Assembly: GCF_001895145.1 (NCBI RefSeq)
Contig: NZ_BDIR01000002.1
Location: 1 to 64,000 of the forward strand
Reading direction: 5' to 3'
DNA length: 64,000 bases
Source of the DNA: Arcobacter sp. LA11
GTDB lineage: Bacteria; Campylobacterota; Campylobacteria; Campylobacterales; Arcobacteraceae
The translations under genes were made by a program, and so were the position numbers. Below are positions 13,781 to 59,605 of this stretch, piece after piece. How positions within the stretch are numbered: position 1 is the first letter of the stretch; each line of letters starts with the position of its first letter. The notes under the pieces were generated by a model. The model was given only the letters and a program-made list of their open reading frames with translations. It was not told where the DNA came from and did not search any database.

Positions 13781-13999
13781 TTAAATCTTTACATTCCAAT
13801 CTTCTAAAGTTTTAGGAGCTTCTAGTTCACAATTGTCCCACTCTTCAAATCCTGATGTTTTTTCATAAACTTGCAAAGCTAACTCTTCCGCTTTTTCTGA
13901 CCAGTTTATTACGTCATCATTTATAGTTAGATTATATCCACCATATGGTGCTGCTGAGATAAAGAATATTCCAAAAGGTGTTTTAAAATAGTTTCTCAA
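13781..13999 (-). CDS. small uncharacterised protein
   Basis: A 72-residue ORF starting at TTG, with AAGGA eight bases upstream. It has a hydrophobic N-terminal stretch (GIFFISAAPYGGY) and an acidic C-terminal half rich in Trp and Glu. I do not recognise a family. It lies 20 bp after the LysE gene on the same strand and ends convergently, 4 bp from the response regulator gene, so it fills the space between two real genes. This spacing and the good ribosome-binding site support it as real. Confidence 0.6.
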   Translation of the reverse strand: MRNYFKTPFGIFFISAAPYGGYNLTINDDVINWSEKAEELALQVYEKTSGFEEWDNCELEAPKTLEDWNVKI

Positions 14000-14019
14000 A
14001 ATTTGATTCCTTCTATATT

Positions 14020-14661: not shown

Positions 14662-14747
14662 ATTATTCCTTTACGTATTTATTGAATAGAGATTATATCT
14701 AAGATAAGCTATAAGAGTAATAGAAATATATAGTAAAGTAAGTAAAG

Positions 14748-14774
14748 AAGCTACAAGTATAAAACTTGTAGCTT
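14748..14774. terminator. 11-bp perfect hairpin between nasA and LysE genes
   Basis: AAGCTACAAGT (14748-14758) and ACTTGTAGCTT (14764-14774) pair perfectly around a 5-nt loop. The plus-strand side is followed by a T-rich stretch. It sits between the nasA 3' end at 14920 and the LysE start at 14661 and probably ends the nasA transcript. A weaker hairpin lies at 14804-14821. Nothing else is visible in 14662-14919. Confidence 0.55.
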
Positions 14775-14919
14775 AATGATTTAATTTTATTTTTTTAATT
14801 TGTTTTATCTTCTTAGATAAACCTTTTTCTTAAATGGACAGTTTTGTACCATTTTCAACATCTAAATATAACTAATAAAAATGTGAAATTAATCGGAAAA
14901 AAATAGAAAAAAACTGATA

Positions 14920-17235
14920 TTATTTATTAATAGAATTTTTTTTCATTATTTCATTTGCAAAAATACTCTCATTTTTAACCACAATATGTTCAAGTTCTCC
15001 AATAACTTCTGTCTCTTTCATCTTAATCCCATCTGGAACTTTAACACTATGAAGTTGAACTGCACACTGTTTATAATTTGGTTCAAAAGATTTTGGATCA
15101 AAATCTGCGATTGTGATTGCATTTATTAGTTGTTCATTATAATGAAATGGTACAAAAACTGAACCAGGTCTTACATTTTGTGACTCTCTTACTATGATAT
15201 CTTTGATTTTTCCTCTACTTGAAGATATATCCATTCTATCTCCACTTTTAACTTCTAGTTTAAGGGCATCTTTTGGATTTATTTCAATCCATGCTTCAGG
15301 TGCTAGGTCATTTAGTATAGAGATAGTTTTTGTTTTTGTTCTTGTGTGCCATTGTTCAACTGTACGACCAGTATTTAACATAAGTGGAAAATCACTGTTT
15401 TCAGACTCTAGAAGTGGTAACCAATCAAGAGCTAATAAATTTGCTTTTCCATCACTAGTATTACAAGGCATATTTTCATCATAAAGTCTTGCAGTTCCTT
15501 TTGGATTTTTTGTATTACAAGGCCATTGGATTCCTCCAAGTTCTTCTATTAGTTCATACGTCATACCTGTATAATCACAAAGTCTTCCATCACTTAATTT
15601 TTTCCATTCATTAAAAGCATCTCTTGGTTCTTTCCAATTTGGATATAGTTTTTCATCTAGTCCAAAGTATTTTGAAAACTCTAATACAATATCAAAGTCA
15701 CTTTTACAAATACCAAGAGGTTCTACAGCTTTTTTAGCATAGTTACATCTTCTTTCACTATTTGTATATGTTCCTTCTTTCTCACTCCACGTAGCAGCAG
15801 AAAATACTATATCAGCTTTCATAATGGTTTCACTTTTAAATGCATCTTGAACTACAAGTAGCTCAAGTTTTCTAAGTGCTTTTCGTAATTTGTTTTGATC
15901 AGGAAAAGATACTAAGGGATTAGTTGCAACAAGCCATAAAGCTTTTATCTCACCTTTTTCTATAGCATCTATTATTTGTGGATATGAGTAACCACGTGAA
16001 GTTGGTACATCTTCTACTGGAAGATTCACAATGTTTGCATACTCTTGTCTATCTTTTTCGCTTGCAAAGTTTCTATATCCTGGTATTGAAGAAGTAAATC
16101 CAGTTTCTCTAGTACCCATTGCGTTACATTGACCTGTAATAGAAAGTGCCGTTGCACCTTTTCTTCCAAGGTTACCAGTAATAAGTGCAAGATTACAAAT
16201 CGCACTAACTGTATCAGTTCCTATTGAACTTTGATTTACTCCCATAGTCCATGCTGACATAGCTGCTGGTGATTTTGCATAAACACGAGCAAGGTTATAT
16301 AAATCTTTTACCTCAATACCCGTTATCTGGGCAACATCTTGTGGTTTATAGTTTGCCATGACATGTTTTCTAAACTCTTTATATCCAGTTGTTCTTTTTT
16401 TAATAAACTTTTCGTCTTCCCAACCTTGTTCTAAAATAATATGACAAAGTCCATTCATCAAGGCTAAATCGCTTCTAGGTTTTATTGCTACAAAGATATC
16501 TGCCATTTTTGCAGTTTTTGAAAACCTTGGGTCAATTACTATAATAGTTGGTTTCTTACCAGTAATCTTTTCATTTTTTGCAATATGAAGTTTCAAAATA
16601 GGGTGGTTATCTGCAATATTTGCACCTATTAAAACAATAGTATCTGCATAAGAGAAATCTTCATAACATCCAACTGGTCCATCACTTCCAAAAGTTTGTT
16701 TATATCCCATAACTGCACTTGCCATACAAAGTGTTGTATTGCCATCGTAGTTGTTTGTCTTTAATCCCATTTGAACAAACTTACCTAGAGTATAAAACTC
16801 TTCTGTTAAAAGTTGTCCTGTAGAGATTACTGATATAGCTTGGTTACCATATTTTGATTGTATTTCTTTAAATTTATCACTTGTTGTTTGAAAAGCTTCT
16901 TCCCAAGAAGAACTCACTAATTGACCATTTTTTCTAATCATTGGAGATGTAAGTCTATTTTCACTTTGAACCATGTCATGTTCGCTTAAACCTTTTGGAC
17001 AAAGAGTTCCTTTATTTACAGGATGAGCTGGGTCACCTTTTGTATATGTAGGTTTTCCATTTTGTACACCAATATATAAGCCACAACCAACACCACAATA
17101 TCCACAAGTACTTCTAACCCAAGAAGTTGGAGCTTTCTCTTTAGCTACTTTTCCAAATACTTTATCATCTACAAGTGAGTATTTATCATTTTTAATATCT
17201 ACACCTAGAAAGTTTTTAATTTTATTAATCATCAT
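14920..17235 (-). CDS. nasA: nitrate reductase, molybdopterin catalytic subunit (copy A)
   Basis: A 771-residue molybdopterin oxidoreductase with no Tat signal, so cytoplasmic. The N-terminal [4Fe-4S] ligands are CGYCGVGC near 44-51 and LCPKG. This is followed by the usual molybdopterin core (WEEAFQT, YDGNTTLCMASAV, TMGVNQS, SITGQCNAMGTRETG) and a C-terminal molydopterin-binding domain (TGRTVEQWHTRTKT, then FVPFHYNE). It resembles NasA/NarB assimilatory nitrate reductases. Its ATG overlaps the stop of the fused DmsB-DmsC gene (TAATG), so the two are coupled and may form a complex. A second, shorter homologue lies upstream. Substrate assignment to nitrate rests on family and context. Confidence 0.88.
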   Translation of the reverse strand: MMINKIKNFLGVDIKNDKYSLVDDKVFGKVAKEKAPTSWVRSTCGYCGVGCGLYIGVQNGKPTYTKGDPAHPVNKGTLCPKGLSEHDMVQSENRLTSPMIRKNGQLVSSSWEEAFQTTSDKFKEIQSKYGNQAISVISTGQLLTEEFYTLGKFVQMGLKTNNYDGNTTLCMASAVMGYKQTFGSDGPVGCYEDFSYADTIVLIGANIADNHPILKLHIAKNEKITGKKPTIIVIDPRFSKTAKMADIFVAIKPRSDLALMNGLCHIILEQGWEDEKFIKKRTTGYKEFRKHVMANYKPQDVAQITGIEVKDLYNLARVYAKSPAAMSAWTMGVNQSSIGTDTVSAICNLALITGNLGRKGATALSITGQCNAMGTRETGFTSSIPGYRNFASEKDRQEYANIVNLPVEDVPTSRGYSYPQIIDAIEKGEIKALWLVATNPLVSFPDQNKLRKALRKLELLVVQDAFKSETIMKADIVFSAATWSEKEGTYTNSERRCNYAKKAVEPLGICKSDFDIVLEFSKYFGLDEKLYPNWKEPRDAFNEWKKLSDGRLCDYTGMTYELIEELGGIQWPCNTKNPKGTARLYDENMPCNTSDGKANLLALDWLPLLESENSDFPLMLNTGRTVEQWHTRTKTKTISILNDLAPEAWIEINPKDALKLEVKSGDRMDISSSRGKIKDIIVRESQNVRPGSVFVPFHYNEQLINAITIADFDPKSFEPNYKQCAVQLHSVKVPDGIKMKETEVIGELEHIVVKNESIFANEIMKKNSINK

Positions 17236-18827
17236 TAGCCCCTTTGGTTCCCTGCAAAAAAGTTTCCTGCAAGTCCTTGAGCAACTGCAGTTTTATAAAA
17301 TAGTAGTCTTGAAATAATTTCACTAGAAAATGAAATAATAATTGCAAGACCTAATACAAAAATTGAATCTGGATAGTTACCAGCAGCTAGAAGAAGCATA
17401 GCAAATAGAGGTAATGCTAATGCTCCAATATATAAAGACATCTCTCTATAATCATTATATTTTTTAAAATGTTCTTCATATAAAATCTTTGTTTTATTTA
17501 GTTGATAAAAGTGTTTATTCTCTTTATCTAGATATTTATAAAAATCATTTTGATTTGCAAACTCTTTATATTGAAAAAATGAAATAAATAGTGCTATAGG
17601 TATAACAACACTTGCACTTGCATAGTACGCATTTAATATAAGAATAAAGCCTATTAATAAAATTCCAATATATGAAACATTGAAGAAAATATTTGTTGTT
17701 TCTTTTTTATTCCAAGATGGTCTAGCTTTAATTCTATAAATCATAGATTGAGCATAGATTCCATAAATACCAATTGCTAATACACCAACTTCTATAATAA
17801 ATCTAAACACTTGGTTAAATTCAAAAAAGAATATTGGAAGAAGAAGTGTTAATCCTCCTGCATAAAGACTAAGGGCTAAAGCTTCTCTACTTAACCAAGA
17901 AGTTTTAATATTTTTCATAGCTGTATATGCTAATATTGGACGTCCAAGGTGTAAAGCAGATAGTGGTAACCCAATTGCTGCTGGTATAAAAATGGCAATC
18001 AACATCCATATATTTGGAATAGCAAGATTAAATCCAAGTAAGCTTGCAAACTCTCCTGCAACTAAAGCTATAAATCCTCCAACAGAAATTTGAGTTAAAA
18101 TTGTCATAAATACAAGTGGCCATTCTGAATGATTTGGTTTTACAATATGTGCATCTGCTGGGATTACTTTTTCTGTAGCATCATCAATTGTATATCTAGT
18201 AGTTGGTTTAGTTACTTCTGTATCTGGAAGATGAGGTGCAATTCCTTCTTTTTCTAAACCAGTATCAAGCCATTCTTGTGTATTTACAACTTCTATTTCA
18301 ATTGCACCTGCTGGACAGGCTTGTACACAGGCTGGAGTTTGTCCTATATCTAACTTATCATGACACATGTGACACTTAGTTACTATTCCTCGGTCTTCAT
18401 TAAATACAGGTACTTCATAAGGACAGTTCCATGTACAGTATTGACATCCAATACACGTATCATCATCGTGAAAAACTATTCCATTGTCAAATTTTATATA
18501 AGATTCTGTAGGACAACCTTTTAAACATTCTGGGTCAATACAGTGGTTACAAGACATTGAGTTAAAATGATTTGAAACATTTGGGAAGATACCACTTTGA
18601 GTTTCTCCTACTCTTCTCCATTTTATATCAGCAGAGTTATTATTTTGTTCATTACAGGCAACTTCACAACAGTGACACCCTACACAGGCTGTTGCATCAA
18701 AGTGAAACCTATACTGTTCTCCTTCTTTGGGTTTTTCTATATCAATATTGTAGTTACCACATTGCATACCGGTTTGTGCTTTATGATTTATAAAACTTTC
18801 TAAGGGAGTCTCTTCATTTATACTCAT
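17235..18827 (-). CDS. fused DmsB-DmsC-like iron-sulfur / membrane anchor subunit
   Basis: About 530 residues from the ATG at 18827 (MSINEE), preferred to the upstream start at 18869 because it has AGGATATTGAGA before it. Residues 1-185 hold four [4Fe-4S] Cys groups (CVGCHCCEVAC, CNHCIDPECLKGC, CIGCQYCTWNC, CHMC with CVQAC), as in DmsB. From about 230 onward there are eight or so membrane spans of the DmsC type. Such a fusion could pass electrons from the quinol pool to a molybdoenzyme. It is coupled to nasA copy A by a stop-start overlap. A quinol-linked membrane donor is unusual for an assimilatory nitrate reductase, which normally uses ferredoxin or a flavoprotein. Confidence 0.88.
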   Translation of the reverse strand: MSINEETPLESFINHKAQTGMQCGNYNIDIEKPKEGEQYRFHFDATACVGCHCCEVACNEQNNNSADIKWRRVGETQSGIFPNVSNHFNSMSCNHCIDPECLKGCPTESYIKFDNGIVFHDDDTCIGCQYCTWNCPYEVPVFNEDRGIVTKCHMCHDKLDIGQTPACVQACPAGAIEIEVVNTQEWLDTGLEKEGIAPHLPDTEVTKPTTRYTIDDATEKVIPADAHIVKPNHSEWPLVFMTILTQISVGGFIALVAGEFASLLGFNLAIPNIWMLIAIFIPAAIGLPLSALHLGRPILAYTAMKNIKTSWLSREALALSLYAGGLTLLLPIFFFEFNQVFRFIIEVGVLAIGIYGIYAQSMIYRIKARPSWNKKETTNIFFNVSYIGILLIGFILILNAYYASASVVIPIALFISFFQYKEFANQNDFYKYLDKENKHFYQLNKTKILYEEHFKKYNDYREMSLYIGALALPLFAMLLLAAGNYPDSIFVLGLAIIISFSSEIISRLLFYKTAVAQGLAGNFFAGNQRG

Positions 18828-47191: not shown

Positions 47192-48994
47192 ATGGAAATA
47201 AAAAACAAAAATCTAGAAGAGTTAGAACAAATCTGTTCTGATATTAGGGCTAGAATTATTGATGTTGTTTCACGAAAAGGTGGACATTTTTCATCAACAC
47301 TTGGTGCAGTTGAACTTACCGTTGCTATGCATAAAGTATTTGATGTAAAAAAAGATCCTTTTATTTATGATGTATCACATCAATGTTATCCTCATAAGCT
47401 TATAAATGGTAGATGGGATGAATTTGAAACAATTAGACAATTTGGTGGATTAAGTGGATTTACTAAGCCAAAAGAATCCGAAGCTGATTATTTTGTTGCA
47501 GGACATAGCTCTACATCTATTTCTCTAGCCGTAGGAGCTGCTAAAAGTATCAAACTAAGAAAAGAGGATAGAATCCCTGTTGTTATGATAGGAGATGGTT
47601 CTATGACTGCTGGAATGGTTTATGAAGGTTTAAATGAATTAGGTGATTTAAAACTTCCAGTTGTAATAATCTTAAATGACAATGAAATGTCAATAGCAAA
47701 ACCAATTGGAGCAATTTCTAAATATCTTTCAAAAATACTTGCAGGTAAATTTTATCAAAACTTTAGAGATAGAGTAGATAGAAATATTGTGCAAAAACTT
47801 CCTGATGGAGCAACATATATTGCAAAAAAAATGGAAGAGAGTATGAAACTTATTACTCCAGGTATTTTATTTGAAGAAATGGGTGTTGATTATATCGGAC
47901 CAATTGATGGACATAATTTAGAAGAAGTTATAGAGACTTTAGAACTTGCAAAAGGAATGGGCAAACCTGTAATTGTGCACGCTCATACAGTTAAAGGAAA
48001 AGGTTATTCTATTGCTGAGGGTCAACATGAACATTGGCATGGAGTAGGTCCATTTAATGTTGATGATGGAAAATTTGTAAAAAAATCAAGTGTTAAATCT
48101 GCAACAGCAGTATTTGCTGATGGATTATTAGATTTAGCAAAAAAATATGAAAATGTAGTAGGTGTAACTGCTGCAATGCCAAGTGGAACAGGTATTGATA
48201 AACTTATGAGTGAATTCCCTGATAGATTTTGGGATGTAGCAATTGCAGAGCAACATGCAGTAACATCTATGGCTGCAATGGCAAAAGAGGGATTTAAGCC
48301 TTTTATTACTATTTATTCTACATTTTTACAAAGAGGTTTTGACCAAATAATACATGATGTATGTCTAATGGATCTTCCTGTTGTTTTTGCAATAGATAGA
48401 GCAGGAATTGTTGGGAATGATGGAGAGACACACCAAGGTGCTTTTGATATCTCTTATTTAAGATTTATTCCAAATATGATTTTATGTGCACCAAGAGACA
48501 ATGAAACTTTAAGTTATGCCTTAGAATTTGGTTATGAAGCAAAAAGTCCATGTGCAATAAGGTATCCAAGAGGAGCTTTTGTTGATATTGATTATAAAGC
48601 TAGTAAATTTGTGCTTGGATGTGCAGAACTTTTAAAAGAGGGGACTTCTAAAAAACTATTGATAGGTTATGGGGCAGGAGTTTCAAGAGCAATTGAAACA
48701 GAAAAACTTCATAAAGAAGATATTGCAGTTTTAGACTTAAGATTTGTAAAACCACTTGATAAAGAAAAATTAAAAGAACTATCTAAAAAATATAATGATT
48801 GGTATGTTTTCTCTGATTCACAATTTGAAGGTGGAGTAGCAAGTGCAATACTTGAATTTTTAAATAAAGATAAAATCTGTGTAAATGTTAGATCATTTGA
48901 ATATAAAGATGATTTCATAAATCATGGAGATACAAAATTAATAGAAGAAGATTTAGGTCTTCTTCCTTCTCAATTAGTTAATAAAATTAACTAA
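47192..48994 (+). CDS. dxs: 1-deoxy-D-xylulose-5-phosphate synthase
   Basis: A 600-residue thiamine-diphosphate enzyme opening the MEP isoprenoid pathway. GDGSMTAGMVYEGLN holds the cofactor-binding GDG; the second half has AEQHAVTSMAAMAKEG and FAIDRAGIVGNDGETHQG. The ribosome-binding site is weak. A perfect palindrome follows the stop. Confidence 0.95.
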   Translation: MEIKNKNLEELEQICSDIRARIIDVVSRKGGHFSSTLGAVELTVAMHKVFDVKKDPFIYDVSHQCYPHKLINGRWDEFETIRQFGGLSGFTKPKESEADYFVAGHSSTSISLAVGAAKSIKLRKEDRIPVVMIGDGSMTAGMVYEGLNELGDLKLPVVIILNDNEMSIAKPIGAISKYLSKILAGKFYQNFRDRVDRNIVQKLPDGATYIAKKMEESMKLITPGILFEEMGVDYIGPIDGHNLEEVIETLELAKGMGKPVIVHAHTVKGKGYSIAEGQHEHWHGVGPFNVDDGKFVKKSSVKSATAVFADGLLDLAKKYENVVGVTAAMPSGTGIDKLMSEFPDRFWDVAIAEQHAVTSMAAMAKEGFKPFITIYSTFLQRGFDQIIHDVCLMDLPVVFAIDRAGIVGNDGETHQGAFDISYLRFIPNMILCAPRDNETLSYALEFGYEAKSPCAIRYPRGAFVDIDYKASKFVLGCAELLKEGTSKKLLIGYGAGVSRAIETEKLHKEDIAVLDLRFVKPLDKEKLKELSKKYNDWYVFSDSQFEGGVASAILEFLNKDKICVNVRSFEYKDDFINHGDTKLIEEDLGLLPSQLVNKIN

Positions 48995-48996
48995 AA

Positions 48997-49023
48997 TTAA
49001 TAGTAGTTTGAAACTACTATTAA
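48997..49023. terminator. perfect 13-bp-arm palindrome between dxs and secretin gene
   Basis: TTAATAGTAGTTT-G-AAACTACTATTAA is a perfect palindrome that starts 2 bp after the dxs stop and covers the stop codon of the convergent secretin gene. It probably ends both transcripts. The T-tract is better on the minus-strand side. Confidence 0.7.
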
Positions 49024-50663
49024 TATCCTAATATTTCATTTACTCTTTTTTGGTGAATTTGTTCTGGAGTCATTTTTGGTTCTTTTGATTTAAAAAGATT
49101 TTTAGATGTTGAAGGTTTTTCTTTTTTAACTGTGACTGTTTTTTCTATTTTATCAAGCTTTTCATCTGATGTGGTATCTTCACTCGAAAAATTTAGGTTT
49201 AGTAGATCTAAATATTTTTTCTTTTTACTATCTTTATGTTTTTTAAACATTTTATTTTTATTTTTTTCAAACTTTGTAATTTGATCATTCGTGGAAGCTT
49301 TAACAATTTCAGGAGTTATGAAAAAAACTAACTCACTTTTACCATCTTTAAAAATATTACTTTTAAATAGAAAACCAAGAATTGGTATATCCCCTAATAT
49401 TGGCAGCTTTTCTATATCTTTAGAATTTTCACTATTAACTAATCCTCCAAGAACTACAGTAGCTTTATCTTTTATAATTACAGTTGTCTCTATAGATTTA
49501 TTTATTATACTAGGTATATTATCTACTGCATTTGCCCAATCTAAATCTCTCGATTTTGTAACAATATTTAAGTGTACAAATTCATCATTCATTACTTCTT
49601 TTGCTGTAAGTGTTAATTCTAAACCATAGTCAATCTTTTGTAACTCAGCTTTTTCATCAGATGTTAATCTTACATAGAGTTCTCCTCCTGCTCTAAATTG
49701 AGCTTCTTTGTTTTCAAGAGTAATAAGAGTAGATTCATCTAGAACATTAGCAATACCTTCTTCTGATAAATATTGTAAAGTAAGTGCAGCATTAAAGTAT
49801 TTACCTAAAAAATTTGCAGCACCTGTTAATCCTCCTGTTAATGTAAGAGCTTCAGACATGATAGTATCAACTTTACTACTAACCAATTCATTGTATTGGT
49901 TATTTATTTTTTGATATTGTTCATTAGAAGCATCTACAATAGGAGCATATCCTTTTCCTATTACTGTTCCTGTTCCAAGTGGATCATAGATATCATATTC
50001 TGTTGTAGGAACATATAGACTATTTAAAGGAACATTGTAATTATTTTCAGTGGCTGTATAATTTTTACTTGAGGCAACCCAGTTATTTTTAATTGTTAAT
50101 CCATCAGAATTATTTATTTCAACTGCATATAATTTTATTCTTACCATTTTAGGGTTGGATGTTGAAAGCATATCTACAATCTTTGTTTCTGGGTCTACAT
50201 CAAATTTTTTAAACATTTCTAAAATCTTTTCTTTATCTTTTTGATTTTGAACAGTACCTTTTAGAAATATAGTGTCATTGATTTGTTCTACATCTAAATC
50301 AGGATATACATTTTCTGCAAATGATATAATATTTTTTAAATGTGGTACAATATTAAATCCAACAGTAATAACTGTACTATCTTGAAATCTTATTAAGGCA
50401 CTTTCATTTGCAGAGTTTTTACCATAAATTTTTAATCTAGTTAATGGATTCTCCTTATTTTCAATAAGTTCTGCAGTAATATTTTCACTGTTTGTAATTT
50501 CAATATTTTTAATTCTTTTATTAAATTGTAGAATTTTATAACTATTTACATCAATAAATATTGTTTTATTTTCAAATTGACTTTGAATTAAAATTTCATC
50601 ATTTGCAAATATGGCATTTAAAGATATTATAAATCCTAAAGTAAATATATTTAAAATTTTCAT
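49020..50663 (-). CDS. rcpA: Tad pilus secretin RcpA/CpaC
   Basis: About 547 residues from the ATG at 50663, where AGGAG precedes it and a Sec signal peptide (ILNIFTLGFIISLNAIFA) begins. The upstream in-frame start at 50699 would lie in the preceding gene. It has an N-terminal pilus domain, a BON-like segment (FLKGTVQNQKDKEKIL), and the secretin core with VVLGGLVNSENSKDIEKLP and LGDIPILGFLFKS, ending in SELVFFITPEIV. It makes the outer-membrane ring. A charged tail follows. Last gene of the pilus cluster. Confidence 0.88.
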   Translation of the reverse strand: MKILNIFTLGFIISLNAIFANDEILIQSQFENKTIFIDVNSYKILQFNKRIKNIEITNSENITAELIENKENPLTRLKIYGKNSANESALIRFQDSTVITVGFNIVPHLKNIISFAENVYPDLDVEQINDTIFLKGTVQNQKDKEKILEMFKKFDVDPETKIVDMLSTSNPKMVRIKLYAVEINNSDGLTIKNNWVASSKNYTATENNYNVPLNSLYVPTTEYDIYDPLGTGTVIGKGYAPIVDASNEQYQKINNQYNELVSSKVDTIMSEALTLTGGLTGAANFLGKYFNAALTLQYLSEEGIANVLDESTLITLENKEAQFRAGGELYVRLTSDEKAELQKIDYGLELTLTAKEVMNDEFVHLNIVTKSRDLDWANAVDNIPSIINKSIETTVIIKDKATVVLGGLVNSENSKDIEKLPILGDIPILGFLFKSNIFKDGKSELVFFITPEIVKASTNDQITKFEKNKNKMFKKHKDSKKKKYLDLLNLNFSSEDTTSDEKLDKIEKTVTVKKEKPSTSKNLFKSKEPKMTPEQIHQKRVNEILGY

Positions 50664-50671
50664 TTTTTCTC

Positions 50672-51133
50672 CTAATTTATATCTATACTTAAAGTACATG
50701 TAATTTGTGCTGCACTATTCTCATTGTAAACTACTTTTCTACTTATAAAATTATTGGCACCTTGACCTGATAAGAAATTTTTATTATAAGTTCCTTGTAC
50801 AATAAAAATTGCTTGATAATTAGTATTTTGAGGTGCTGCAGTAGCAATATTACAAACAATATCACCAATTGCAATAGTATCTATTGCAGGAATTCTAATA
50901 CTATTTAAGTCTGTTACTAATTGAGCAGTTGGCATAGTAGATTGTGTTAAAGTACCTGATACTACTCTTACTGCATATTCACTAAGTGCATCCATATTAT
51001 CTTTTATTCTAATTGCTGTAGCATAATTAATTACAAAAAAGAATAGCCATACAAACCCTATAAATAATACCATCCACATAAGAATTTGTTCAATATATGC
51101 AGGTTTCATATTTTGAGTTTTTTGTTTAATCAT
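50672..51133 (-). CDS. TadE/TadF-like minor pseudopilin
   Basis: A 153-residue protein with one N-terminal membrane helix (QILMWMVLFIGFVWLFFFVINY, shortened) and a periplasmic domain with two Cys (VCNIAT and ITCTLS). The size, topology and place in the cluster fit TadE/TadF, though I see no clear prepilin peptidase site. It lies between cpaB and the secretin gene. Confidence 0.65.
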   Translation of the reverse strand: MIKQKTQNMKPAYIEQILMWMVLFIGFVWLFFFVINYATAIRIKDNMDALSEYAVRVVSGTLTQSTMPTAQLVTDLNSIRIPAIDTIAIGDIVCNIATAAPQNTNYQAIFIVQGTYNKNFLSGQGANNFISRKVVYNENSAAQITCTLSIDIN

Positions 51134-51142: not shown

Positions 51143-52318
51143 CTATTTTCTCAGTTTTATATATTCGTCATAATTGATTTCTTTCACATCACTTTTTCGT
51201 ATATAACTTCCATCACATAACATATACCATGAAGTATTTATTTTTGAAATATTAGTATAAGGTAATATATAGTTTTTATAAATTTTTTTATGAATTTTAG
51301 ATCTAATTGATGGATGTTTTCTTATATATACTTTATTTGAGGTAACTAATAAAAGTTTATCTTTTTTAGAACATTCTTCTTTATAATTAGATGAAATTTT
51401 TGCTTTTTTAGTTTGCACTAAATCAGAATTATCTGAATATGAAATAGTAGCAGTTTTTGTACTAACTGATGTTTTTGGCTGATACCATTTTATAGGGTAT
51501 GTTCTTGGTATATATTTTCTTTTTACTATTTTTTTCTTAATGAGTGTTTTCTTTTCTTTTACTTCTTCTTTTTCTTCTACTTCTAATTCCTCTTTTTCTT
51601 CTTCAAATTTTGATTTAACCATCCAAAGTTGTTTACCTTTATTATAATCATTAATTAAAGATATTAAAACTTCTTCTTTTATATCTAAAATAATTTCTTC
51701 AGATCTTAATTCAATTATTTCTTCCACTTGTTTTTTCTTTACAACTTTTTTTATTTTTTTCTTAATAATTGATTTCTCAGTAAGTCTTCCTGAATTAAGA
51801 AAACCTAATAAACGGATATTTTTTGCAACATATTGCACTGAAAATTGGTTAGTTTCTTCTCCTGAATTATCTGGATATACAGAAATAATTTTTATTATAT
51901 CATTGGGTTCAAGGGAATAGTTAGGGTTTTTAAATAGTTTATATGACATATTGTAACTATTATATTTATAATCAATAGTTTTTTTCTCAATAACTTTTAC
52001 AATTTTAATACTTAACTTTTCTTTTAAGAAAGCTTCATTTTTATATATTGTTTCTTTTGCATATTTATTAAGTATTTCTTTTTTTAGAAGAGGTTTTGTT
52101 AATATATACTGTCTTGCAATAGAAGTTTGTTTAATATGTTGGTCTGTAATTAGCGTATCTTTTTTTATATTATCTTTTGCTACATATATTGTTACAAGTT
52201 GATTCTGACTTGCTAATACTTGTTTGTTTTTATCATAAAAGTAATAAGATACGGCAATTGCTGATAATAACATTGATAATAAAACCAGTATAATTGCAAT
52301 CTGTTTATTAAATTTCAT
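51143..52318 (-). CDS. cpaB: CpaB/RcpC-like pilus protein with C-terminal SH3-like extension
   Basis: A 391-residue protein with one N-terminal membrane helix (about 7-27) and an SAF-like domain (VTIYVAKDNIKKDTLITDQHI). A strongly charged Lys/Glu-rich stretch follows (about 235-270), then a SH3-like end (VYIRKHPSIRSKIHKKIY to SYIRKSDVKEI). CpaB/RcpC proteins bridge the secretin and peptidoglycan. The extra SH3-like end is not usual for the family and could bind cell wall. Confidence 0.78.
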   Translation of the reverse strand: MKFNKQIAIILVLLSMLLSAIAVSYYFYDKNKQVLASQNQLVTIYVAKDNIKKDTLITDQHIKQTSIARQYILTKPLLKKEILNKYAKETIYKNEAFLKEKLSIKIVKVIEKKTIDYKYNSYNMSYKLFKNPNYSLEPNDIIKIISVYPDNSGEETNQFSVQYVAKNIRLLGFLNSGRLTEKSIIKKKIKKVVKKKQVEEIIELRSEEIILDIKEEVLISLINDYNKGKQLWMVKSKFEEEKEELEVEEKEEVKEKKTLIKKKIVKRKYIPRTYPIKWYQPKTSVSTKTATISYSDNSDLVQTKKAKISSNYKEECSKKDKLLLVTSNKVYIRKHPSIRSKIHKKIYKNYILPYTNISKINTSWYMLCDGSYIRKSDVKEINYDEYIKLRK

Positions 52319-52336: not shown

Positions 52337-53173
52337 TTACAATCCAAATTCTAAGCTACCTGCCATCATAGGAAAAATAATAAATGCTCCCAGCGCAGGT
52401 AATACAAAAATAAATATAATAAGCATTAAATACATATTTAATGTATTTACTTTACCTTTTATTTTATAAAACTTTTCTTGTCTCATTTCATCTGATTGTG
52501 AAGCAAAAATATTTTTAACTCCTATTCCTGCTTCTTCACTTAATATTAAAAAATCTACAATTTTTGCAACGTCTTCCGAATCAACTCTTTTTTTAAGATT
52601 TTCATAAGCTTTTTTTGTTGAGTAGTTTGTCATTTCATATTCTAATATTGCAATTTCTTTTAATAGTTCTTCATTTAAAATTCCATTTGCTCTTACTGAA
52701 ACAGTAAAGAAAGCATTCTTCAATCCTCCTCCTGCTTCAAGTATTACATTAATTAAGTCAAGAAATACTCCTAAATCAGTATTTATTTTTTCTACTCGTT
52801 CAGATTTTGAAATATATAAATAAAGTTTACCCCCAAATATCAATAATAAGATACCAATAAGTATACCTGTTACTCCAACTGTAAAAGAGAAAAATATTGG
52901 GAATGAAATACCAATAACTAGTCCCATAATAGCAAATACTAATTTACCTTCATTGTATTCTTTTTTTGTCAATCCTGCTTGAATTAATTTAAAATGTAAG
53001 TCTTGAGTATCATCAGCTTTATTTTTAATTTCATTTTGTTTTTCAATAATAGCTAAACTATCTAACTTAGATAAAAGTACAATTTGTTTTTTTATACTTT
53101 TAGAGTCATAAAAAAACCATCCAATTAAAAAAATGATTGCTAAAAAAATAGGAAGAAAAATAATAATATTCAT
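52337..53173 (-). CDS. tadC: Tad platform protein TadC
   Basis: A 278-residue inner-membrane protein of the type II secretion F family. It has N-terminal and C-terminal spans, with the conserved cytoplasmic part VFLDLINVILEAGGGLKNAF and ILSEEAGIGVKNIFASQSDEMRQEK. It partners TadB as platform of the pilus. It follows tadB by 1 bp. Confidence 0.88.
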   Translation of the reverse strand: MNIIIFLPIFLAIIFLIGWFFYDSKSIKKQIVLLSKLDSLAIIEKQNEIKNKADDTQDLHFKLIQAGLTKKEYNEGKLVFAIMGLVIGISFPIFFSFTVGVTGILIGILLLIFGGKLYLYISKSERVEKINTDLGVFLDLINVILEAGGGLKNAFFTVSVRANGILNEELLKEIAILEYEMTNYSTKKAYENLKKRVDSEDVAKIVDFLILSEEAGIGVKNIFASQSDEMRQEKFYKIKGKVNTLNMYLMLIIFIFVLPALGAFIIFPMMAGSLEFGL

Positions 53174-53174: not shown

Positions 53175-54104
53175 CTATTTTACCTTTGTCAATAAATTAT
53201 TTACAAATAAACCAAATCCAACCCATACTGCTATAAAAAACATTTGAATTTGACCTTCATTTGTACCAAAAAAGTGTTCATCAAGAACACCTTCCATTGA
53301 ACTATCCATCATCTCATAAATAAAGATTACTAAAGCAATTATCATATAACTACCTACTTTTACTTCTCTGGTTGATGCAGTAATTTCTTGTTTTATCTCT
53401 CCTTGATCGTGAAGAGTTTTTCTCAGTTTTTCAAGTGTGTTTGAAAACTTTCCACCTGATTGTCTACCAATAGAAATTGTTAGGTAAAAAATTCTAAGTT
53501 CTTTTGATTCTACTAGTTTAAACATTTTTTCAAAAGATTTTTCCTCTCCAATAATATCTTTTTCTATTAAATAGATATTAAAAACTTCTTCAGTAAACTT
53601 AGATTTTGAAGTTAATACAGATTTTTTTAATGCTTGTTCAAATCCTACTCCACTTTTCATCATACTAGTAACTTTATCTATAATGATTTTTAGACCAAAG
53701 TTAAACTCTTCTTGTCTATTATCAATTATTTTTTTTAGAACTAAAAGTGGGAAAAATGAGAATATTATCCATCCAATTATAAAAACTAAAGGATTTGTAA
53801 TTGCAAAATTAATAAATGTTGCAGATAAAAATCCAAATAAAGTTGAAATAATTATAAATACTATTTCTGAATATGGAGAATCAAAACCTGCATAAGTTAA
53901 TTTCTTGCCTAACCAGTTTCTCTCTTTTTTATTGAATATGGATTGTTTTTTCTTTTCTGCGAGGATTTCATTTGGGTCAACAGATAATTGTTTAATTATT
54001 CTATTTTGTTTATTAAAATTAATATATAAATTATAACTTATAATCCCTAGTAATACTGATAATATAGGAATTATAATAATTAATACAATTATCTCTGTAG
54101 TCAT
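53175..54104 (-). CDS. tadB: Tad platform protein TadB
   Basis: A 309-residue membrane protein of the type II secretion F family. The conserved region IDKVTSMMKSGVGFEQALKKS and SIGRQSGGKFSNTLEKL is seen between two sets of membrane spans. It is immediately after the tadA ATPase gene and before tadC. Confidence 0.88.
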   Translation of the reverse strand: MTTEIIVLIIIIPILSVLLGIISYNLYINFNKQNRIIKQLSVDPNEILAEKKKQSIFNKKERNWLGKKLTYAGFDSPYSEIVFIIISTLFGFLSATFINFAITNPLVFIIGWIIFSFFPLLVLKKIIDNRQEEFNFGLKIIIDKVTSMMKSGVGFEQALKKSVLTSKSKFTEEVFNIYLIEKDIIGEEKSFEKMFKLVESKELRIFYLTISIGRQSGGKFSNTLEKLRKTLHDQGEIKQEITASTREVKVGSYMIIALVIFIYEMMDSSMEGVLDEHFFGTNEGQIQMFFIAVWVGFGLFVNNLLTKVK

Positions 54105-55709
54105 TTATATGGTTCTTTCTATTTTTTGGAAATGAGGCCATTTATGGAAAACTTGAGGATCTTGGTGTAAAAATACATCTATAAATTCATCTTTCCAACC
54201 ACACATTTTATCTGGTAAATCTTTTTCTAATTCATCAATTAACATTGATTTTGGCATTTCAAATTCTTTATTGAAAATTGATATATCAATATCTACTCCA
54301 AACATATTCATTTGAGAAATTGTTCTACTTGGCGTGGAAATAACTTCAAAACTTCCTTTTGTTTTAGTCATATCGCTAGTATCTCTTTTAAATTCAAATA
54401 TATTATTTAAGGAGATAACTGCGTTGTCTTCAATTCTTCTTTCAACTTCAGAGATAGTAATTAATTTTCTTGTTCCATCTGGGAACCTTACTAGTTGAAT
54501 AATAATATCTACTGCTGATACAATTTGTGCACGAATAAAGTTAATATTTGCACTAGGACGTGCTTCTAAATACATATTTTCAATTCTTACAAGAGCTTCT
54601 TTTGTATTATCAGCATGTACTGTAGTCATAGAACCAGGATGTCCAGTATTCATTGCATTTAACATTACAACAATTTCTTGTCCTCTACACTCCCCAACTA
54701 TAATTCTTCTTGGAGATGACCTTAATGCAGAACGTAATAAGAAATCTAAAGGGATAGCTCCTTTTCCTTCTTCATTTGCCATTCTTGCTTCATATGATCT
54801 TATTGAATGACAAGGCATCTGTGGTTGCATTTCTTTTGTATCTTCAATAACCATAAGTTGTTCATTATCATCTACAAATCTTGTCATTGCATTTAAAAAG
54901 GTAGTCTTACCACTTGATGTACCACCTGAAACAATTATATTACATTTACCTTTTGCAACTTTTAATAAAAAGTAGGCCATTTTGAAATCCATTTGCCCTG
55001 AATCTATTAGAAACTCAAGTAATAAAGGTAAATCATTAAATTTTCTTATTGTTATACAACTTCCTTCATTTGCAGCAATAGGAGGAATTTGTACTTCAAC
55101 TCTTGAACCATCTTTTAGTTTACTTGACATAATAGGATGTGCTTCATCAATTTTTCTATTATTTTCAGCAAGCATTTTATCAATAACTTTACGTAATTCA
55201 TCTTCACTTCTAAAAGTAAATGGAGTTTGTACTGTTTTCCCTTTGTAAATAATATCAATATAGTTTTTTGTATTTACAATAACATCATTTAATCCATCTT
55301 TTGCAATATCAAAGAGCGCAGTTATTGGTCCATATCCAATTACATTATTGATTATGAATTCTTTGATATCATCTAATATATCCTTAGGAAGATGATTAGT
55401 TTGCTTAAATCCAAGTATAAATTCAGGTAAAACTTCTTCTAATGAATCTCTAGTGATTTTTTTATCAGATTTTAAATTTATCATAAAAGTATCATTTATT
55501 TCATAAGCAATTTCAAGTAGTTTTTCATCGAGATAAATTTTAGGAAATATTAAACCTGTTTCTTTAGACCTCTTTTTTACTTTTTCAATTTTTTCTTTAT
55601 TTATTCTTTCATTTATATCTTCGTTTTCTTCTTCTTCATAAGAAAAAGACTGTTTTTTAATTTCTTTTTTTTGTTCTTCATCTGCTATTAGTAATCTTAA
55701 GTTTCTCAA
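54105..55709 (-). CDS. tadA: Tad pilus assembly ATPase TadA/CpaF
   Basis: A 534-residue secretion ATPase. Walker A is SGGTSSGKTTFL near 265, the Asp box IEDTKEMQ, Walker B-like RIIVGECRGQE and the His box MTTVHADNTKEAL are all present. It powers pilus assembly and retraction. Its start overlaps the tadZ stop by 4 bp. The first ~80 residues are a highly charged, coiled region. Confidence 0.93.
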   Translation of the reverse strand: MRNLRLLIADEEQKKEIKKQSFSYEEEENEDINERINKEKIEKVKKRSKETGLIFPKIYLDEKLLEIAYEINDTFMINLKSDKKITRDSLEEVLPEFILGFKQTNHLPKDILDDIKEFIINNVIGYGPITALFDIAKDGLNDVIVNTKNYIDIIYKGKTVQTPFTFRSEDELRKVIDKMLAENNRKIDEAHPIMSSKLKDGSRVEVQIPPIAANEGSCITIRKFNDLPLLLEFLIDSGQMDFKMAYFLLKVAKGKCNIIVSGGTSSGKTTFLNAMTRFVDDNEQLMVIEDTKEMQPQMPCHSIRSYEARMANEEGKGAIPLDFLLRSALRSSPRRIIVGECRGQEIVVMLNAMNTGHPGSMTTVHADNTKEALVRIENMYLEARPSANINFIRAQIVSAVDIIIQLVRFPDGTRKLITISEVERRIEDNAVISLNNIFEFKRDTSDMTKTKGSFEVISTPSRTISQMNMFGVDIDISIFNKEFEMPKSMLIDELEKDLPDKMCGWKDEFIDVFLHQDPQVFHKWPHFQKIERTI

Positions 55710-57298
55710 CTTTTTTCCTTATTTAAAAAAGAGAATAATGCTTTTTTATTTTTCTTCTTTTCTACAATATTACTTATATATTCTTTTTCTAATAAGATTT
55801 CCTCTAATGTTTTTACAAAAATCGAATCTTTTGAAACTTCAGAAGCTAATTCACAATAGTTCCAACATTTACCTAAGGTAGCATAATCATTGGGAATTTT
55901 TAGATACATTAACTTTTCTTCTTTTGAACTTGTATTCATTATTGAATCAAAATCTGAAGCAGAAATTTCATTTAATGAGTTAACTCTATTAACAATAAAA
56001 CTTACTTTATCTTTAAGTCCTGCTCTTTTCATTAAAGAATAAAAAGTTTTTAATTTTGATACATGAGGAAGCGTCATTTCTGTTAAAATCCATATTTCAT
56101 TTACTAAATCATATATGGTACTTTTCATACTTGAAGCATCAGCCTCTCCCGTATCAATTATTATATAATTAAAGTTTTCACTCGCTTTTAGTAAATAATC
56201 AAGTAGTTTTTCAATAAAATTATCTTTTTCTACTAAATCTTTATCAATATGTTTTTGAATACCATTAATAGAATAGAAATTTTCTCTTATTTTAACTAAT
56301 CCAACTTCAAGATTTTTTTGTATATTAAAGTCACTCATATTAACTAAGTCTATAATTGTATAGTTTGGTACTGGATTTTGTGATAGAAATAAGTTACTAA
56401 TTGCTTTTGTTGTTGATAAGTCAACATATAAAACATTTTTGCTAGGATTTTTTCTTGCAATTATATCTGCAGTATTCATTGAAATTGTAGTGGCACCAAT
56501 TCCTCCAGAAACACCACTAACTGCAATTATTTTATTGTCAAGTTTATTTTTGTTAATTAGTTTATGTTTTGTATCAAGTATTATATTCTTAATGTGTTCA
56601 GGTGAAAATTCATCTATTGAAACATAATTTTCAATATTTAATTTTCCACAAGTTAAAGAGAGATTGTGATCATTTGGTCCAACTACTATAATAAATTCAT
56701 TGAAAGTTTTAAGCAATTCTTCATCATCTTTGATTAATTCATTATTTTGAACTGTATAAATAATAATATTTTTAGAATTTTTTAAATTTAAAGGTTCATT
56801 AATTTTTGTAATATCATGAATTACACTTATTTCAGCATTAAGTAGTATATCTAAGTTAGTTTGTAGTTTATTTGCAAATTTTATAGTATTTTTATCTGTT
56901 ATTATGTATACATTTAGTGGTGTATTTTGTGATAATAAATCTTTTTCAATTTCAAAAATTTTTCTTAGAGCAATTTTTGATTTTTTAAGTAATTCTCTTA
57001 ATACTTGTCTATACCAAATTCTCCTATTGAAGGTAATTTTACCAAAGATGATATCTCCATCTTTAAGTACTATAGAATATTTATTATTTATAAAGTTTAT
57101 ATCATCTTCAATTATTTCATATCCATCAATTGTAAATCCATAGACAAAATTATTATATTTAAAATCATATTTCATAAATGTAAGTTTTTGGATATTTGAA
57201 ATAAGTACAAATAATTGTAAAATTTCAATTACATTTTCTTTTCTAATATCTAAAGCACCTTGGACATTTGCATATTCTTGATAACTTTTATAATCCAT
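55706..57298 (-). CDS. tadZ: TadZ/CpaE-like pilus localisation ATPase
   Basis: A 530-residue protein. The N-terminal ~245 residues are an atypical receiver-like region. The C-terminal half is a ParA/MinD-like ATPase with AVSGVSGGIGATTIS near 260, a Walker A in which the usual Lys positions are changed, and LYVDLSTTKAIS and YIIIDTGEA. TadZ proteins place the pilus at a pole. It begins the tadZABC run, and the three genes are tightly packed. Confidence 0.82.
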   Translation of the reverse strand: MDYKSYQEYANVQGALDIRKENVIEILQLFVLISNIQKLTFMKYDFKYNNFVYGFTIDGYEIIEDDINFINNKYSIVLKDGDIIFGKITFNRRIWYRQVLRELLKKSKIALRKIFEIEKDLLSQNTPLNVYIITDKNTIKFANKLQTNLDILLNAEISVIHDITKINEPLNLKNSKNIIIYTVQNNELIKDDEELLKTFNEFIIVVGPNDHNLSLTCGKLNIENYVSIDEFSPEHIKNIILDTKHKLINKNKLDNKIIAVSGVSGGIGATTISMNTADIIARKNPSKNVLYVDLSTTKAISNLFLSQNPVPNYTIIDLVNMSDFNIQKNLEVGLVKIRENFYSINGIQKHIDKDLVEKDNFIEKLLDYLLKASENFNYIIIDTGEADASSMKSTIYDLVNEIWILTEMTLPHVSKLKTFYSLMKRAGLKDKVSFIVNRVNSLNEISASDFDSIMNTSSKEEKLMYLKIPNDYATLGKCWNYCELASEVSKDSIFVKTLEEILLEKEYISNIVEKKKNKKALFSFLNKEKS

Positions 57299-57366: not shown

Positions 57367-58671
57367 TTATGGGGTACATGTGGTTGTAATAACTGAATCT
57401 GCTGATATTAAAGAAATATCAATCGGTTCAGGTACATAAATTTTTTTTAAATTTAAAGACATATCTGTAAAATCCCTATCACTATTCCATGGTTCGTCTC
57501 CATTAATAGTTGATAAATCTTCTGATACATAAACAAAATCATCTTTTGGGTCTTTTGAATAGTCTATACCATTATCATTTGCATACTCAACCCAATCTTC
57601 AAATGTATGAGCACTCCCTACTACTCCTTGTTCTGCAGTAGATAAGCTATCATAATATGCTTGGGCTTCTGTCGTATAATGTCCAGTATCTTCAATATAA
57701 GCAATAAATTTACCGTATTGGCTTTCTGCTATTTCATTCATATGGTCATATGAATCATCATAATTATATTTTTCTTCTTGAAAATAGATATTTGCTCTTT
57801 GTGGTAAGTAATTATATTGTGGATTTGTACCATCTGTATTTCTTTCTACTTGACCCGTATCCGTTGTAACTTTTACAACAGGTTTTGTATTTGGATCGGT
57901 TGGACAATCATGTTCGAATTCTAGTTGAGTATCTAACGAAATTCCAGAATTTGAACCTGAACCTGAACTATTATAATTTCCAAACCTTCTATATCCATCA
58001 GATATAAAAAAAATCCCACTTTCTGATGCTTTGATTTCTCCTAAAATATCGCCTTTTGCAAAATTATTTTTATTGTCTAATATTATTTTAGGATTTGATG
58101 GACAACCATCATCATCAAAGTCATAAGTTCCTACAAGATTAAAAAAACCAGCATTTATTACATCTCTAAAATATACTGTTACATCAAAGTCAAAGTTTGT
58201 AAAATCTAATGCCCTTGACATTGAAGGTATTGTAAAGCTATCTCTTCCTAAAAGTTTATACCAAAATGTACTTTGTTGATGACTTGAAATAGTTGTTGTG
58301 ACATTGTCCGGAAATTGATCAAGACTTCCGCTTGTTAAGTTCCCATTCACATCATATGTTCCTGAATCTCTCCATGTGTATTGTATTTGATTTGCTGAAA
58401 TTAATTCTGCACCAAGACTTGAGGATGCAATCAAAGTGTTAGTTAAGGCTTCTGCTGCACATATTGCATCCATTGCATTTGGAACTTGGACTTCATTTAT
58501 TGATCTTCTATAAGTTTGAGCTAGCGATTTATTAGCCTCATTTATTAAGTCTTGTAATTCATAAACTTTATTTCTTGTTTGTCTCTCATCATTTACTGTA
58601 GCTATAAATGTAACAATACCAGATAAAAGTATAAATCCTAAAAACATTTGATTTATTATTGCTTTTTTCAT
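57367..58671 (-). CDS. TadG-like exported pilus-associated protein
   Basis: A 434-residue protein with one N-terminal membrane helix (MFLGFILLSGIVTFIATV) and a long, acidic, Asn/Ser/Asp-rich extracellular part that includes YDFDDDGCPSNPK and a Gly-Ser run (SGSGSNSG near 237). Position between the prepilin peptidase and tadZ, with the topology, suggests a TadG-type or minor pilin role, perhaps at the tip. I recognise no exact family. Confidence 0.55.
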   Translation of the reverse strand: MKKAIINQMFLGFILLSGIVTFIATVNDERQTRNKVYELQDLINEANKSLAQTYRRSINEVQVPNAMDAICAAEALTNTLIASSSLGAELISANQIQYTWRDSGTYDVNGNLTSGSLDQFPDNVTTTISSHQQSTFWYKLLGRDSFTIPSMSRALDFTNFDFDVTVYFRDVINAGFFNLVGTYDFDDDGCPSNPKIILDNKNNFAKGDILGEIKASESGIFFISDGYRRFGNYNSSGSGSNSGISLDTQLEFEHDCPTDPNTKPVVKVTTDTGQVERNTDGTNPQYNYLPQRANIYFQEEKYNYDDSYDHMNEIAESQYGKFIAYIEDTGHYTTEAQAYYDSLSTAEQGVVGSAHTFEDWVEYANDNGIDYSKDPKDDFVYVSEDLSTINGDEPWNSDRDFTDMSLNLKKIYVPEPIDISLISADSVITTTCTP

Positions 58672-58684: not shown

Positions 58685-59116
58685 TTAGTAAGGGTATAGT
58701 TCCATTTTATATAAAATCTCTGTTATAATGACTGCTAAAAAGATTGCAGGTGCCATTGGTGCAACACGTCTTTTTTTATATTTTTGAAAATATATTAAAA
58801 AAAACATTTGAACAATACCTGTAGTTAGTAGAAATAGAGGGAATAATATAGGTTCTAAATAGATTGCAACTACCATTATATACTTTATATCTCCACCACC
58901 TAAAATCATATTTGGCATGATCAGTAATATTATAACAAAAAAAAGTAAAATTAGAAAGGAAATAATAAATGAATATAGGTTTAGTTGGCTATCTAGATAA
59001 CCAAATGAGAGTAAAAATAATAACAAAGTAACAATTAGTATATTAGGAATCTTATATTTAGTACAATCTATATATGATAATATAAAAGAAAAAATATAAA
59101 ATGATATAGAAAACAT
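58685..59116 (-). CDS. tadV: prepilin peptidase TadV/CpaA
   Basis: A 143-residue A24-family membrane aspartic protease. The two catalytic aspartates are in YIDCTKYKIPN near 15 and GGGDIKYI near 73. It lacks the N-terminal methylase domain, as is usual for TadV. It lies 5 bp after the second pilin gene and should process both pilins. Confidence 0.9.
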   Translation of the reverse strand: MFSISFYIFSFILSYIDCTKYKIPNILIVTLLLFLLSFGYLDSQLNLYSFIISFLILLFFVIILLIMPNMILGGGDIKYIMVVAIYLEPILFPLFLLTTGIVQMFFLIYFQKYKKRRVAPMAPAIFLAVIITEILYKMELYPY

Positions 59117-59121: not shown

Positions 59122-59331
59122 TTAACTATTATCTACAATATTATTTATTCCAACATTTGCTCTATCTATCATTGTATTTTTATTGTCGCTAACCCAAATT
59201 TCAACACTAACAAGAGCCGCTATGCCAATAACTACAAAAAGTAAGGTTACAAGAATTCTATCCATTGCACCTTTTTCTGATTTTAACTTAGCAAATATTC
59301 TGTTAAACAAATTAATTCCTTTTAAAATCAC
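59122..59331 (-). CDS. flp2: Flp-type pilin, copy 2
   Basis: A 69-residue pilin precursor. The leader ends KSEKG, then AMDRILVTLLFVVIGIAALV is the hydrophobic N-terminal helix. Cleavage after Gly is expected. The Glu normally at position +5 of mature Flp pilins is absent; position +5 is Ile, with Asp at +3. It is close to copy 1 in this region and differs in leader and tail. Confidence 0.8.
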   Translation of the reverse strand: MILKGINLFNRIFAKLKSEKGAMDRILVTLLFVVIGIAALVSVEIWVSDNKNTMIDRANVGINNIVDNS

Positions 59332-59335
59332 TTAA

Positions 59336-59374
59336 ATAAAGAAGTATGTATTTAAATTAAACACATACTCTTTA
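59336..59374 (-). terminator. hairpin between the two pilin genes
   Basis: AGTATGT (59343-59349) and ACATACT (59363-59369) pair, extended by TAAAG/CTTTA with a bulge. It lies in the 88-bp gap after pilin copy 1 and may hold back read-through so that copy 1 is made in excess. Confidence 0.5.
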
Positions 59375-59419
59375 ATTTATTAAAGGTAAATTTACCTAGT
59401 TTTATTTGTACTAGAGCTG

Positions 59420-59605
59420 TTAGCTCCCAGTTATATTCGTAATAGAGTTGTTCGCTGCATCAATCATAGAGTTTTTACTTGTACTCATCCATTCGTTTAA
59501 TCCAACTACTGCTGCAACACCTACAACAACTAATAATAAAGTTACAAGGATTTTATCCATTGCACCTTTCTCAGATTTAAGTCTTCTTTTTAAAAATTCT
59601 AACAT
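59420..59605 (-). CDS. flp1: Flp-type pilin, copy 1 (major)
   Basis: A 61-residue pilin precursor, first gene of the cluster. The leader is short and basic (LEFLKRRLKSEKG), followed by AMDKILVTLLLVVVGVAAVVG. As in copy 2, the mature protein would have Asp at +3 and no Glu at +5. AGGAGACTTAA precedes the ATG. Its place at the head of the operon with a hairpin after it suggests it is the main subunit. Confidence 0.82.
   Translation of the reverse strand: MLEFLKRRLKSEKGAMDKILVTLLLVVVGVAAVVGLNEWMSTSKNSMIDAANNSITNITGS

Follow-up and report, generated by a model that had tools for sequence, protein, structure and literature searches.

Canonical Tad/Flp systems, such as PilA-Cpa of Caulobacter and Flp1-Tad of Aggregatibacter, are the closest described relatives of a tad operon that we analysed in a stretch of 64,000 nucleotides from Arcobacter sp. 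LA11 (contig NZ_BDIR01000002.1, positions 1 to 64,000, hereafter the window; the 3.1-Mb genome is in 53 contigs). They have in common with the window operon the proteins TadA, TadB, TadC, TadV, TadZ and RcpA, an RcpC-like protein, and small pilins with a glycine-ended leader. The glutamate at position +5 of the mature pilin (Glu5) is described as almost invariable among bacterial type IV pilins in PMC4471445, and in the Caulobacter Tad pilus the Glu5 network has been proposed to belong to a universal mechanism of assembly (PMC11067988). The window operon differs from the canonical systems in lacking Glu5 and Tyr6 in its pilins, Glu5 in its TadE-, TadF- or TadG-like subunits, TadD, and a pilin match to the family Flp_Fap. 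We propose, with a probability of about 0.6, that it encodes a working Tad (type IVc) pilus without the Glu5 network, held by the packing of hydrophobic helices, and that it belongs to a clade found so far only in Campylobacterota.

Imam et al. reported Gram-positive tad loci in which the Flp-like proteins lack Tyr6 or no Flp can be recognised (PMC3244431). In our analysis, many Flp1_like pilins (PF16982) of Clostridia Tad systems also lack Glu5, often with an acidic residue at +1 to +3. Archaeal type IV pili, including the Iho670 filament, have in common with the window pilins a hydrophobic N-terminus that is often without Glu5. Unlike them, the window pilins are too short for a globular domain, and the operon encodes a CpaF-type ATPase and a secretin. 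A Tad pilus has been reported in a Sulfurospirillum epibiont (PMC10470745).

Two pilins of the window lack glutamate at position +5

The pilin genes of the window are the following (the arrow marks the presumed cleavage site):

59420-59605, minus strand: Flp-like prepilin 1, 61 residues, ATG start, KSEKG↓AMDKILVTLL, without Glu5
59122-59331, minus strand: Flp-like prepilin 2, 69 residues, GTG start, KSEKG↓AMDRILVTLL, without Glu5

Prepilin 1 begins with MLEFLKRRLKSEKGAMDKILVTLLLVVVG, and prepilin 2 contains KLKSEKGAMDRILVTLLFVVIG. The original prediction, made from the sequence of the window, had called the two proteins duplicated Flp pilins without the usual Glu5, and this is borne out. They are identical in 37 of 59 aligned residues (prepilin 2 against prepilin 1, E 9.9e-17), and KSEKG followed by AMD(K/R)ILVTLL is read in both. 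Cleavage after the glycine places Ile at +5 and Leu at +6, and cleavage after the following alanine places Leu at +5. The small size, the leader ending in glycine, and the Lys-Gly pair followed by a hydrophobic stretch are those of Flp pilins. The G-XXXX-E-Y motif of that family (Glu5, Tyr6) is absent from both proteins, and neither matches Pfam Flp_Fap (PF04964) or Flp1_like (PF16982) above the cut-off.

The missing glutamate is not explained by a misplaced cleavage site. When each Gly or Ala among the first 45 residues of both pilins was taken as residue -1, no site in prepilin 1 gave Glu or Asp at +5. In prepilin 2, an acidic residue reached +5 only by cleavage after Ala14, in the charged leader, or Ala39, within the helix, and neither is the boundary between leader and helix. 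The aspartate that had been placed at +3 stands there if TadV cuts after the glycine; it would be at +2 after cleavage at the alanine. The latter cleavage is possible, because leaderless paralogs of the pilins have the Met directly after KGA as their first residue, and KG↓M is read in the pilins of Sulfurimonas-type loci. For the window pilins, the register of the TadE-like protein argues for cleavage after the glycine, with cleavage after the alanine as a possibility.

The two pilins could instead be minor or accessory components of a compound filament that is built by a Glu5-bearing pilin encoded elsewhere. We consider this improbable, since a search of the whole genome for the two families PF04964 and PF16982 found no Flp pilin above the cut-offs, and the Flp matches found in the loci fetched around the close TadA or its pilin are free of Glu5.

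The Glu5-free pilins belong to a clade within Campylobacterota

The pilin profile found matches in 27 of 397 genomes of the phylum. Thirteen of the matching genomes had strong matches, and the same 13 carry a close TadA; the other 14 matches were weak (E 6e-4 to 0.009), mostly within long reading frames, and were not counted. Within the order, 8 of 199 genomes matched: four were among the 13, two belong to a third family (G069 and G196), and two were weak. One weak match (G056) was set aside. The other (G001, from yet another family of the order; L009:1462-1602, at a contig edge) reads KG↓VSGVIVALML, or at the given coordinates KG↓VSGVIVALMLILVG, and is probably a further Glu5-free pilin without a readable operon; its N-terminus closely resembles those of archaeal pilins. 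In the family of the window, matching pilins are present in 28 of 104 genomes, including that of the window, so the Glu5-free pilin is beyond chance.

Glutamate at +5 was found in none of the 50 pilin matches of the clade (49 distinct, as one Sulfurimonas record occurs twice). For five of them (four leaderless, one with a long frame) the automatic finder returned no site, and for one it set the site wrongly; these six were read by eye. The N-termini differ by group: those in the family of the window are of the G↓AMDKILV type, Sulfurimonas-type loci have G↓MSGVLV or G↓LSGVMI, and the third family has G↓VNGVIV or G↓INGVIV. Pilin, TadV, TadZ, TadA, TadB, TadC, RcpC and RcpA form the core set common to the covered loci; the proteins that occupy the TadE and TadF/TadG positions in Sulfurimonas-type loci are mostly too divergent to match those of the window.

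The pilin gene has moved within the clade, because its position or strand differs between groups. In Sulfurimonas-type loci it follows the secretin gene as the last gene of the operon, and in the third family it lies on the opposite strand (seen among L050, L051 and L054-L057). The pilin loci L045 and L048 are orphans with no match to the operon. Among 4977 plasmid records, all TadA matches were below 60% identity.

Canonical Tad systems occur in the same phylum. Nine further genomes carry a distant TadA (E about 1e-75), and the pilins of all nine are ordinary G↓VTAIEYALIAVA proteins of the VTAIEY type with Glu5. Starts of both a TadE-like and a TadF-like protein, each with Glu5, were found in eight of these nine loci; the simple pattern used found none in L087.

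In a quick tree, computed with no archaeal TadA, the 17 sampled TadA sequences from Glu5-free Campylobacterota loci form one clade with a support of 100 in the Shimodaira-Hasegawa-like approximate likelihood ratio test (SH-aLRT) and a stem of 2.09 changes per column. Together with the absence of Glu5 from all subunits read and the absence of TadD common to the relatives, the tree upholds the suggestion that the locus represents a divergent Tad branch.

Glu5-free tad loci outside the phylum

A scan of named genomes returned at least 80 TadA loci, of which four of those listed fall into the clade. The other 76 listed loci comprise 33 with a Glu5-bearing Flp-like pilin, 24 with a Glu5-free one and 19 unclassified (six frames, L123, L126, L131, L132, L157 and L167, were set by hand, and L125 and L149 were left out as unclear). 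By record title, the 24 Glu5-free loci are from Clostridia, except L103 of Cellulomonadaceae and L159, titled Lactobacillus rogosae. Glu5-free pilins are therefore not unique to this branch or phylum. All nine of the 24 pilins scanned against Pfam match Flp1_like, four of them above the cut-off; the pilin of L148, also scanned, belongs to Flp1_like and has Glu5. The pilins of the 24 loci (L164, L116, L136 and 21 others) include one starting G↓VSPVVATVLL, and weak matches to the archaeal Pfam family Pilin_N were obtained for four of the nine scanned.

A TadE- or TadF-like frame with Glu5 was scored near 18 of the 24 Glu5-free pilins, unlike at the window locus; this is a raw script count, in which the match of L111 is a false frame and L110, counted as lacking one, visibly has Glu5. 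Most outside loci therefore seem to have changed only the major pilin.

The window pilins also differ from the Clostridia pilins in missing PF16982, and the TadA tree sets the Campylobacterota clade apart from the Clostridia group, so that three changes of state are needed. The tree thus favours separate origins of the two Glu5-free groups, without proving them: one common origin was not rejected by the approximately unbiased (AU) test (p 0.118).

The tad operon of the window

Eleven consecutive genes on the minus strand, from 59605 down to 49020 and all with open reading frames, make up the operon. Downstream of the pilin genes it encodes:

58685-59116, minus strand: TadV-type short prepilin peptidase (Peptidase_A24), 143 residues, Pfam PF01478 at E 1.2e-8
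57367-58671, minus strand: TadG-like or tip-protein candidate, N-terminus MKKA↓IINQMFLG, assigned by position and N-terminus only
55706-57298, minus strand: TadZ-like ParA/MinD ATPase, Pfam PF13614 at 8.7e-7, TIGR01968 at 2.4e-7 (below cut-off)
54105-55709, minus strand: TadA (CpaF) assembly ATPase, TIGR03819 at 1e-65 (below cut-off), CpaF in the PDB at 5.2e-67
53175-54104, minus strand: TadB platform protein, PF00482 at 1.6e-8
52337-53173, minus strand: TadC platform protein, PF00482 at 9.7e-8
51143-52318, minus strand: RcpC/CpaB-like periplasmic protein with a SAF-type region, TIGR03177 pilus_cpaB at 1.6e-4, flgA_cterm at 5.4e-5 and SAF at 0.011 (all below cut-off)
50672-51133, minus strand: TadE-like minor pilin candidate, KPA↓YIEQILMW, AlphaFold2 (AF2) model, 22 relatives aligned
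49020-50699, minus strand: RcpA secretin, PF00263 at 7e-39

TadA/CpaF, the adjacent pair of TadB and TadC, a short TadV, TadZ, RcpA and an RcpC/CpaB protein, the last with a weak CpaB match, identify the locus as a Tad system. The peptidase is the sole match to PF01478 in the genome at E <= 1, and we take the two aspartates in DCTKYKIPN and GGGD, picked out by eye from the motif, to be those of its active site. The gene on one flank (47192-48994) resembles dxs by its translation, and the plus-strand genes on the other flank, judged by eye, presumably encode membrane and sugar-metabolism proteins.

The original prediction had also described the locus as compact, without visible tadD or rcpB. 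The eleven genes leave no gene-sized reading frame for TadD, and two canonical TadD proteins used as queries matched none of 31 TadA-bearing fragments of Glu5-free loci (one Sulfurimonas record is counted twice among them, and several stop inside the operon), whereas the same queries found TadD in all nine canonical Campylobacterota loci. In the genome of the window, they match only a tetratricopeptide repeat (TPR) protein of 600 residues on another contig (E 5.5e-6). RcpB is likewise missing by the accounting of reading frames alone, with no RcpB profile run, but its absence is not distinctive, because the only canonical Campylobacterota locus with a full gene list, L083, also lacks it.

Import of the branch from archaea, as an Epd-type pilus with archaeal-type pilins, would agree with the archaeal protein that is the best match of the pilin profile in the PDB and with a weak match of prepilin 1 to the NCBIfam bindosome protein BasC (0.003, far below the cut-off). 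Such an origin is very improbable, because the match of TadA to structures of bacterial CpaF (230 bits) is far better than that to the archaeal-type ATPase FlaI (113 bits), and the operon includes an outer-membrane secretin.

Decay of the locus, or a locus that makes no pili, would fit the missing Glu5 and has that one observation in its favour. We give it hardly any credence: the eleven genes are open, the operon is conserved in relatives, the pilin recurs in more than a quarter of the genomes of the family, and a syntenic pair of orphan leaderless pilin genes (L045 and L212) has a nonsynonymous divergence (dN) of about 0.20 against a synonymous divergence (dS) of about 1.9, the latter near saturation.

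Other pilin-like subunits and the acidic residue at +3

Glu5 is missing from every TadE-like and TadF/TadG-like subunit read in the clade, including the minor pilin candidates of the window. In the window's group, TadE-like proteins start with K-x-(A/G)↓x(I/V)(D/E)(Q/N) and TadG-like proteins with K(K/R)(A/G)↓x(I/V/L/M)(D/E/N)(Q/T). The TadF-like proteins of Sulfurimonas-type loci start with G↓SAAIVP or G↓SVAIVP and have Val where canonical TadF (PF16964, G↓SITIEAS) has Glu.

The TadE-like protein of the window matches no Pfam family, TadE and TadF included. Its AF2 model, with a predicted local distance difference test (pLDDT) score of 82, consists of a 52-residue helix and four strands, and this predicted architecture is that of a minor pilin. 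The window copy of the TadG-like candidate has no Pfam match. Its relatives span 314-846 residues, many of them 314-464, and two long ones, of 806 and 846 residues (L044:11435-13855 and L192:2098-4638), carry immunoglobulin-like (Ig) and cadherin-like domains. The TadG-like gene is a candidate for a variable, adhesin-like tip protein.

Within the window's group an acidic residue at +3 is nearly constant. Asp or Glu occupies this position in 36 of 37 scored Flp rows (the remaining row has a mis-set site and Asp by eye), in 21 of 22 TadE-like rows (the exception is again a mis-set site, with Glu at +3 by eye) and in 22 of 25 TadG-like rows. The three other TadG-like rows are two with Asn, one of them that of the window, and one mis-set row (L207_4565) that is actually TadE-like; three further TadG-like rows, two in the window's group and one from the Sulfurimonas type, yielded no site. 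Such conservation would be expected if the acid had been relocated, with Asp at +3 (or +2) taking over the contact of Glu5 with the N-terminus of the neighbouring subunit in a shifted register common to Flp, TadE-like and TadG-like proteins. Pilins outside the clade point the same way: an acid at +1 to +3 is present in 19 of the 24 Glu5-free loci against 3 of 42 Glu5-bearing pilins (Fisher p 2.7e-9).

However, the acid is missing from the Flp pilins of the Sulfurimonas type (8/8 rows, two from the same record) and of the third family (2/2), from five of the 24 Glu5-free loci outside the clade, and from the window's own TadG-like protein. The association outside the clade also amounts to few evolutionary events, with two independent pairs on supported branches and no phylogenetic power. 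Asp(+3) is therefore not a general substitute for Glu5, since two of the three groups have no acidic residue there, and it fails as the rule of the branch that had been suggested. We regard a relocated acid as possible but unlikely, and favour the hydrophobic packing of helices; an acid in the first turn may help some members and is missing in others.

Leaderless paralogs

Five second or orphan pilin copies in the family of the window start at M(D/E)(R/K)IL without a leader (L192:1492-1638, L197:11747-11905, L045:13702-13848, L212 on the minus strand with a start near 9829, and L189:1305-1445). Their starts read MDRIL or MEKIL, and one reads LERIL with a TTG start. According to PMC7347861, the starts of some archaeal pilins were wrongly annotated at an internal Met, which calls for caution. 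Here, an in-frame stop codon precedes all five starts by 0 to 14 codons, which argues against misannotation, and a Shine-Dalgarno-like sequence is seen by eye upstream of four. The leaderless paralogs, as read from their genes, would bypass the prepilin peptidase. A trimmed, leaderless Flp of Bdellovibrio is required for predation (PMC5430801). This protein, Flp2 (Bd0118), likewise starts at the mature N-terminus, as do some second copies in the clade; unlike the window's own pilins, which have leaders, it keeps the EY motif.

Orphan leaderless pilins occur near the same conserved gene pair (proteins of 209/207 and 606 residues) in L045 (about 13702-17694), L212 (about 9683-13671) and L213 (about 9553-14846); the pair presumably corresponds to the Entner-Doudoroff genes eda and edd. 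L213 also holds, within 4537-9690, a leaderless pilin-like open reading frame (MDRVYVALFLVIIG), upstream of which stand an in-frame TAA and AAGGAG. It adjoins what we take to be filamentous-phage genes, Zot-like and secretin-like, and could encode a phage coat protein instead of a pilin.

Proposed assembly of the pilus

Based on the gene set of the operon and the N-termini of its pilins, a pathway of assembly can be proposed. TadV would remove the leader after the glycine, or after the following alanine. TadA, TadB and TadC would then build the polymer from the bare hydrophobic helices and pass it through the channel formed by RcpA and RcpC, with the TadE-like and TadG-like proteins acting as putative minor or tip subunits. 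The filament would be held by hydrophobic helix packing, without a hydrogen-bond network of Glu5, and so resemble several type IV pili of archaea. The mode of packing is favoured because the N-terminal contacts in the archaeal pili of PMC7347861 are described as almost all hydrophobic, and the best match of the pilin profile in the PDB is the core of the archaeal Iho670 filament (E 0.0067). The sequences show the gene set, the absence of Glu5, the clade and its conservation; processing, polymerisation and packing, like the different assembly rule put forward in the original prediction, are what we infer from them.

Several points weigh against this proposal. The resemblance to Iho670 covers a hydrophobic stretch of 25 residues at a weak E-value, and the next match is a bacterial geopilin (0.017). 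Glu is present in one archaeal pilus of PMC7347861, and PMC11067988 states that archaeal type IV pilins also conserve it, which weakens the archaeal analogy. The hydrogen-bond network of Glu19 and Tyr20 (+5 and +6) in the Caulobacter Tad pilus is there called crucial and is said to be conserved throughout Tad pilins, and Glu5 mutants of classical pilins are reported to form no homopolymers (PMC4471445). Asp(+3) could still replace Glu5 in the family of the window, and the genome search covered two families of type IV pilins. Position and N-terminus are the grounds on which the TadE-like and TadG-like proteins were identified; profile comparisons of the TadE-like protein with canonical TadE and TadF are weak, and its model has no PDB match in Foldseek at E <= 0.001. 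In the open-access literature searched on Tad pili in Campylobacterota, we found no description of the clade or its pili.

We further propose, tentatively and at somewhat less than even odds, that all subunit classes of the clade (Flp, TadE-like and TadF/TadG-like) dropped Glu5 together, and that the resulting filaments polymerise with an acid in the first turn or with none, some from leaderless subunits.

The motifs by which Flp pilins have been sought in published work include Glu5 (PMC5430801, PMC3244431). Searches that require it would miss candidate pilins, because those of the clade and of many Clostridia loci lack it. The presence of a Glu5-free clade beside canonical Tad systems in one phylum offers a natural comparison for the role of Glu5 in charge neutralisation, docking or register. 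If the proposal is true, Tad pili would be able to do without the Glu5 network, which has been called universal for them.
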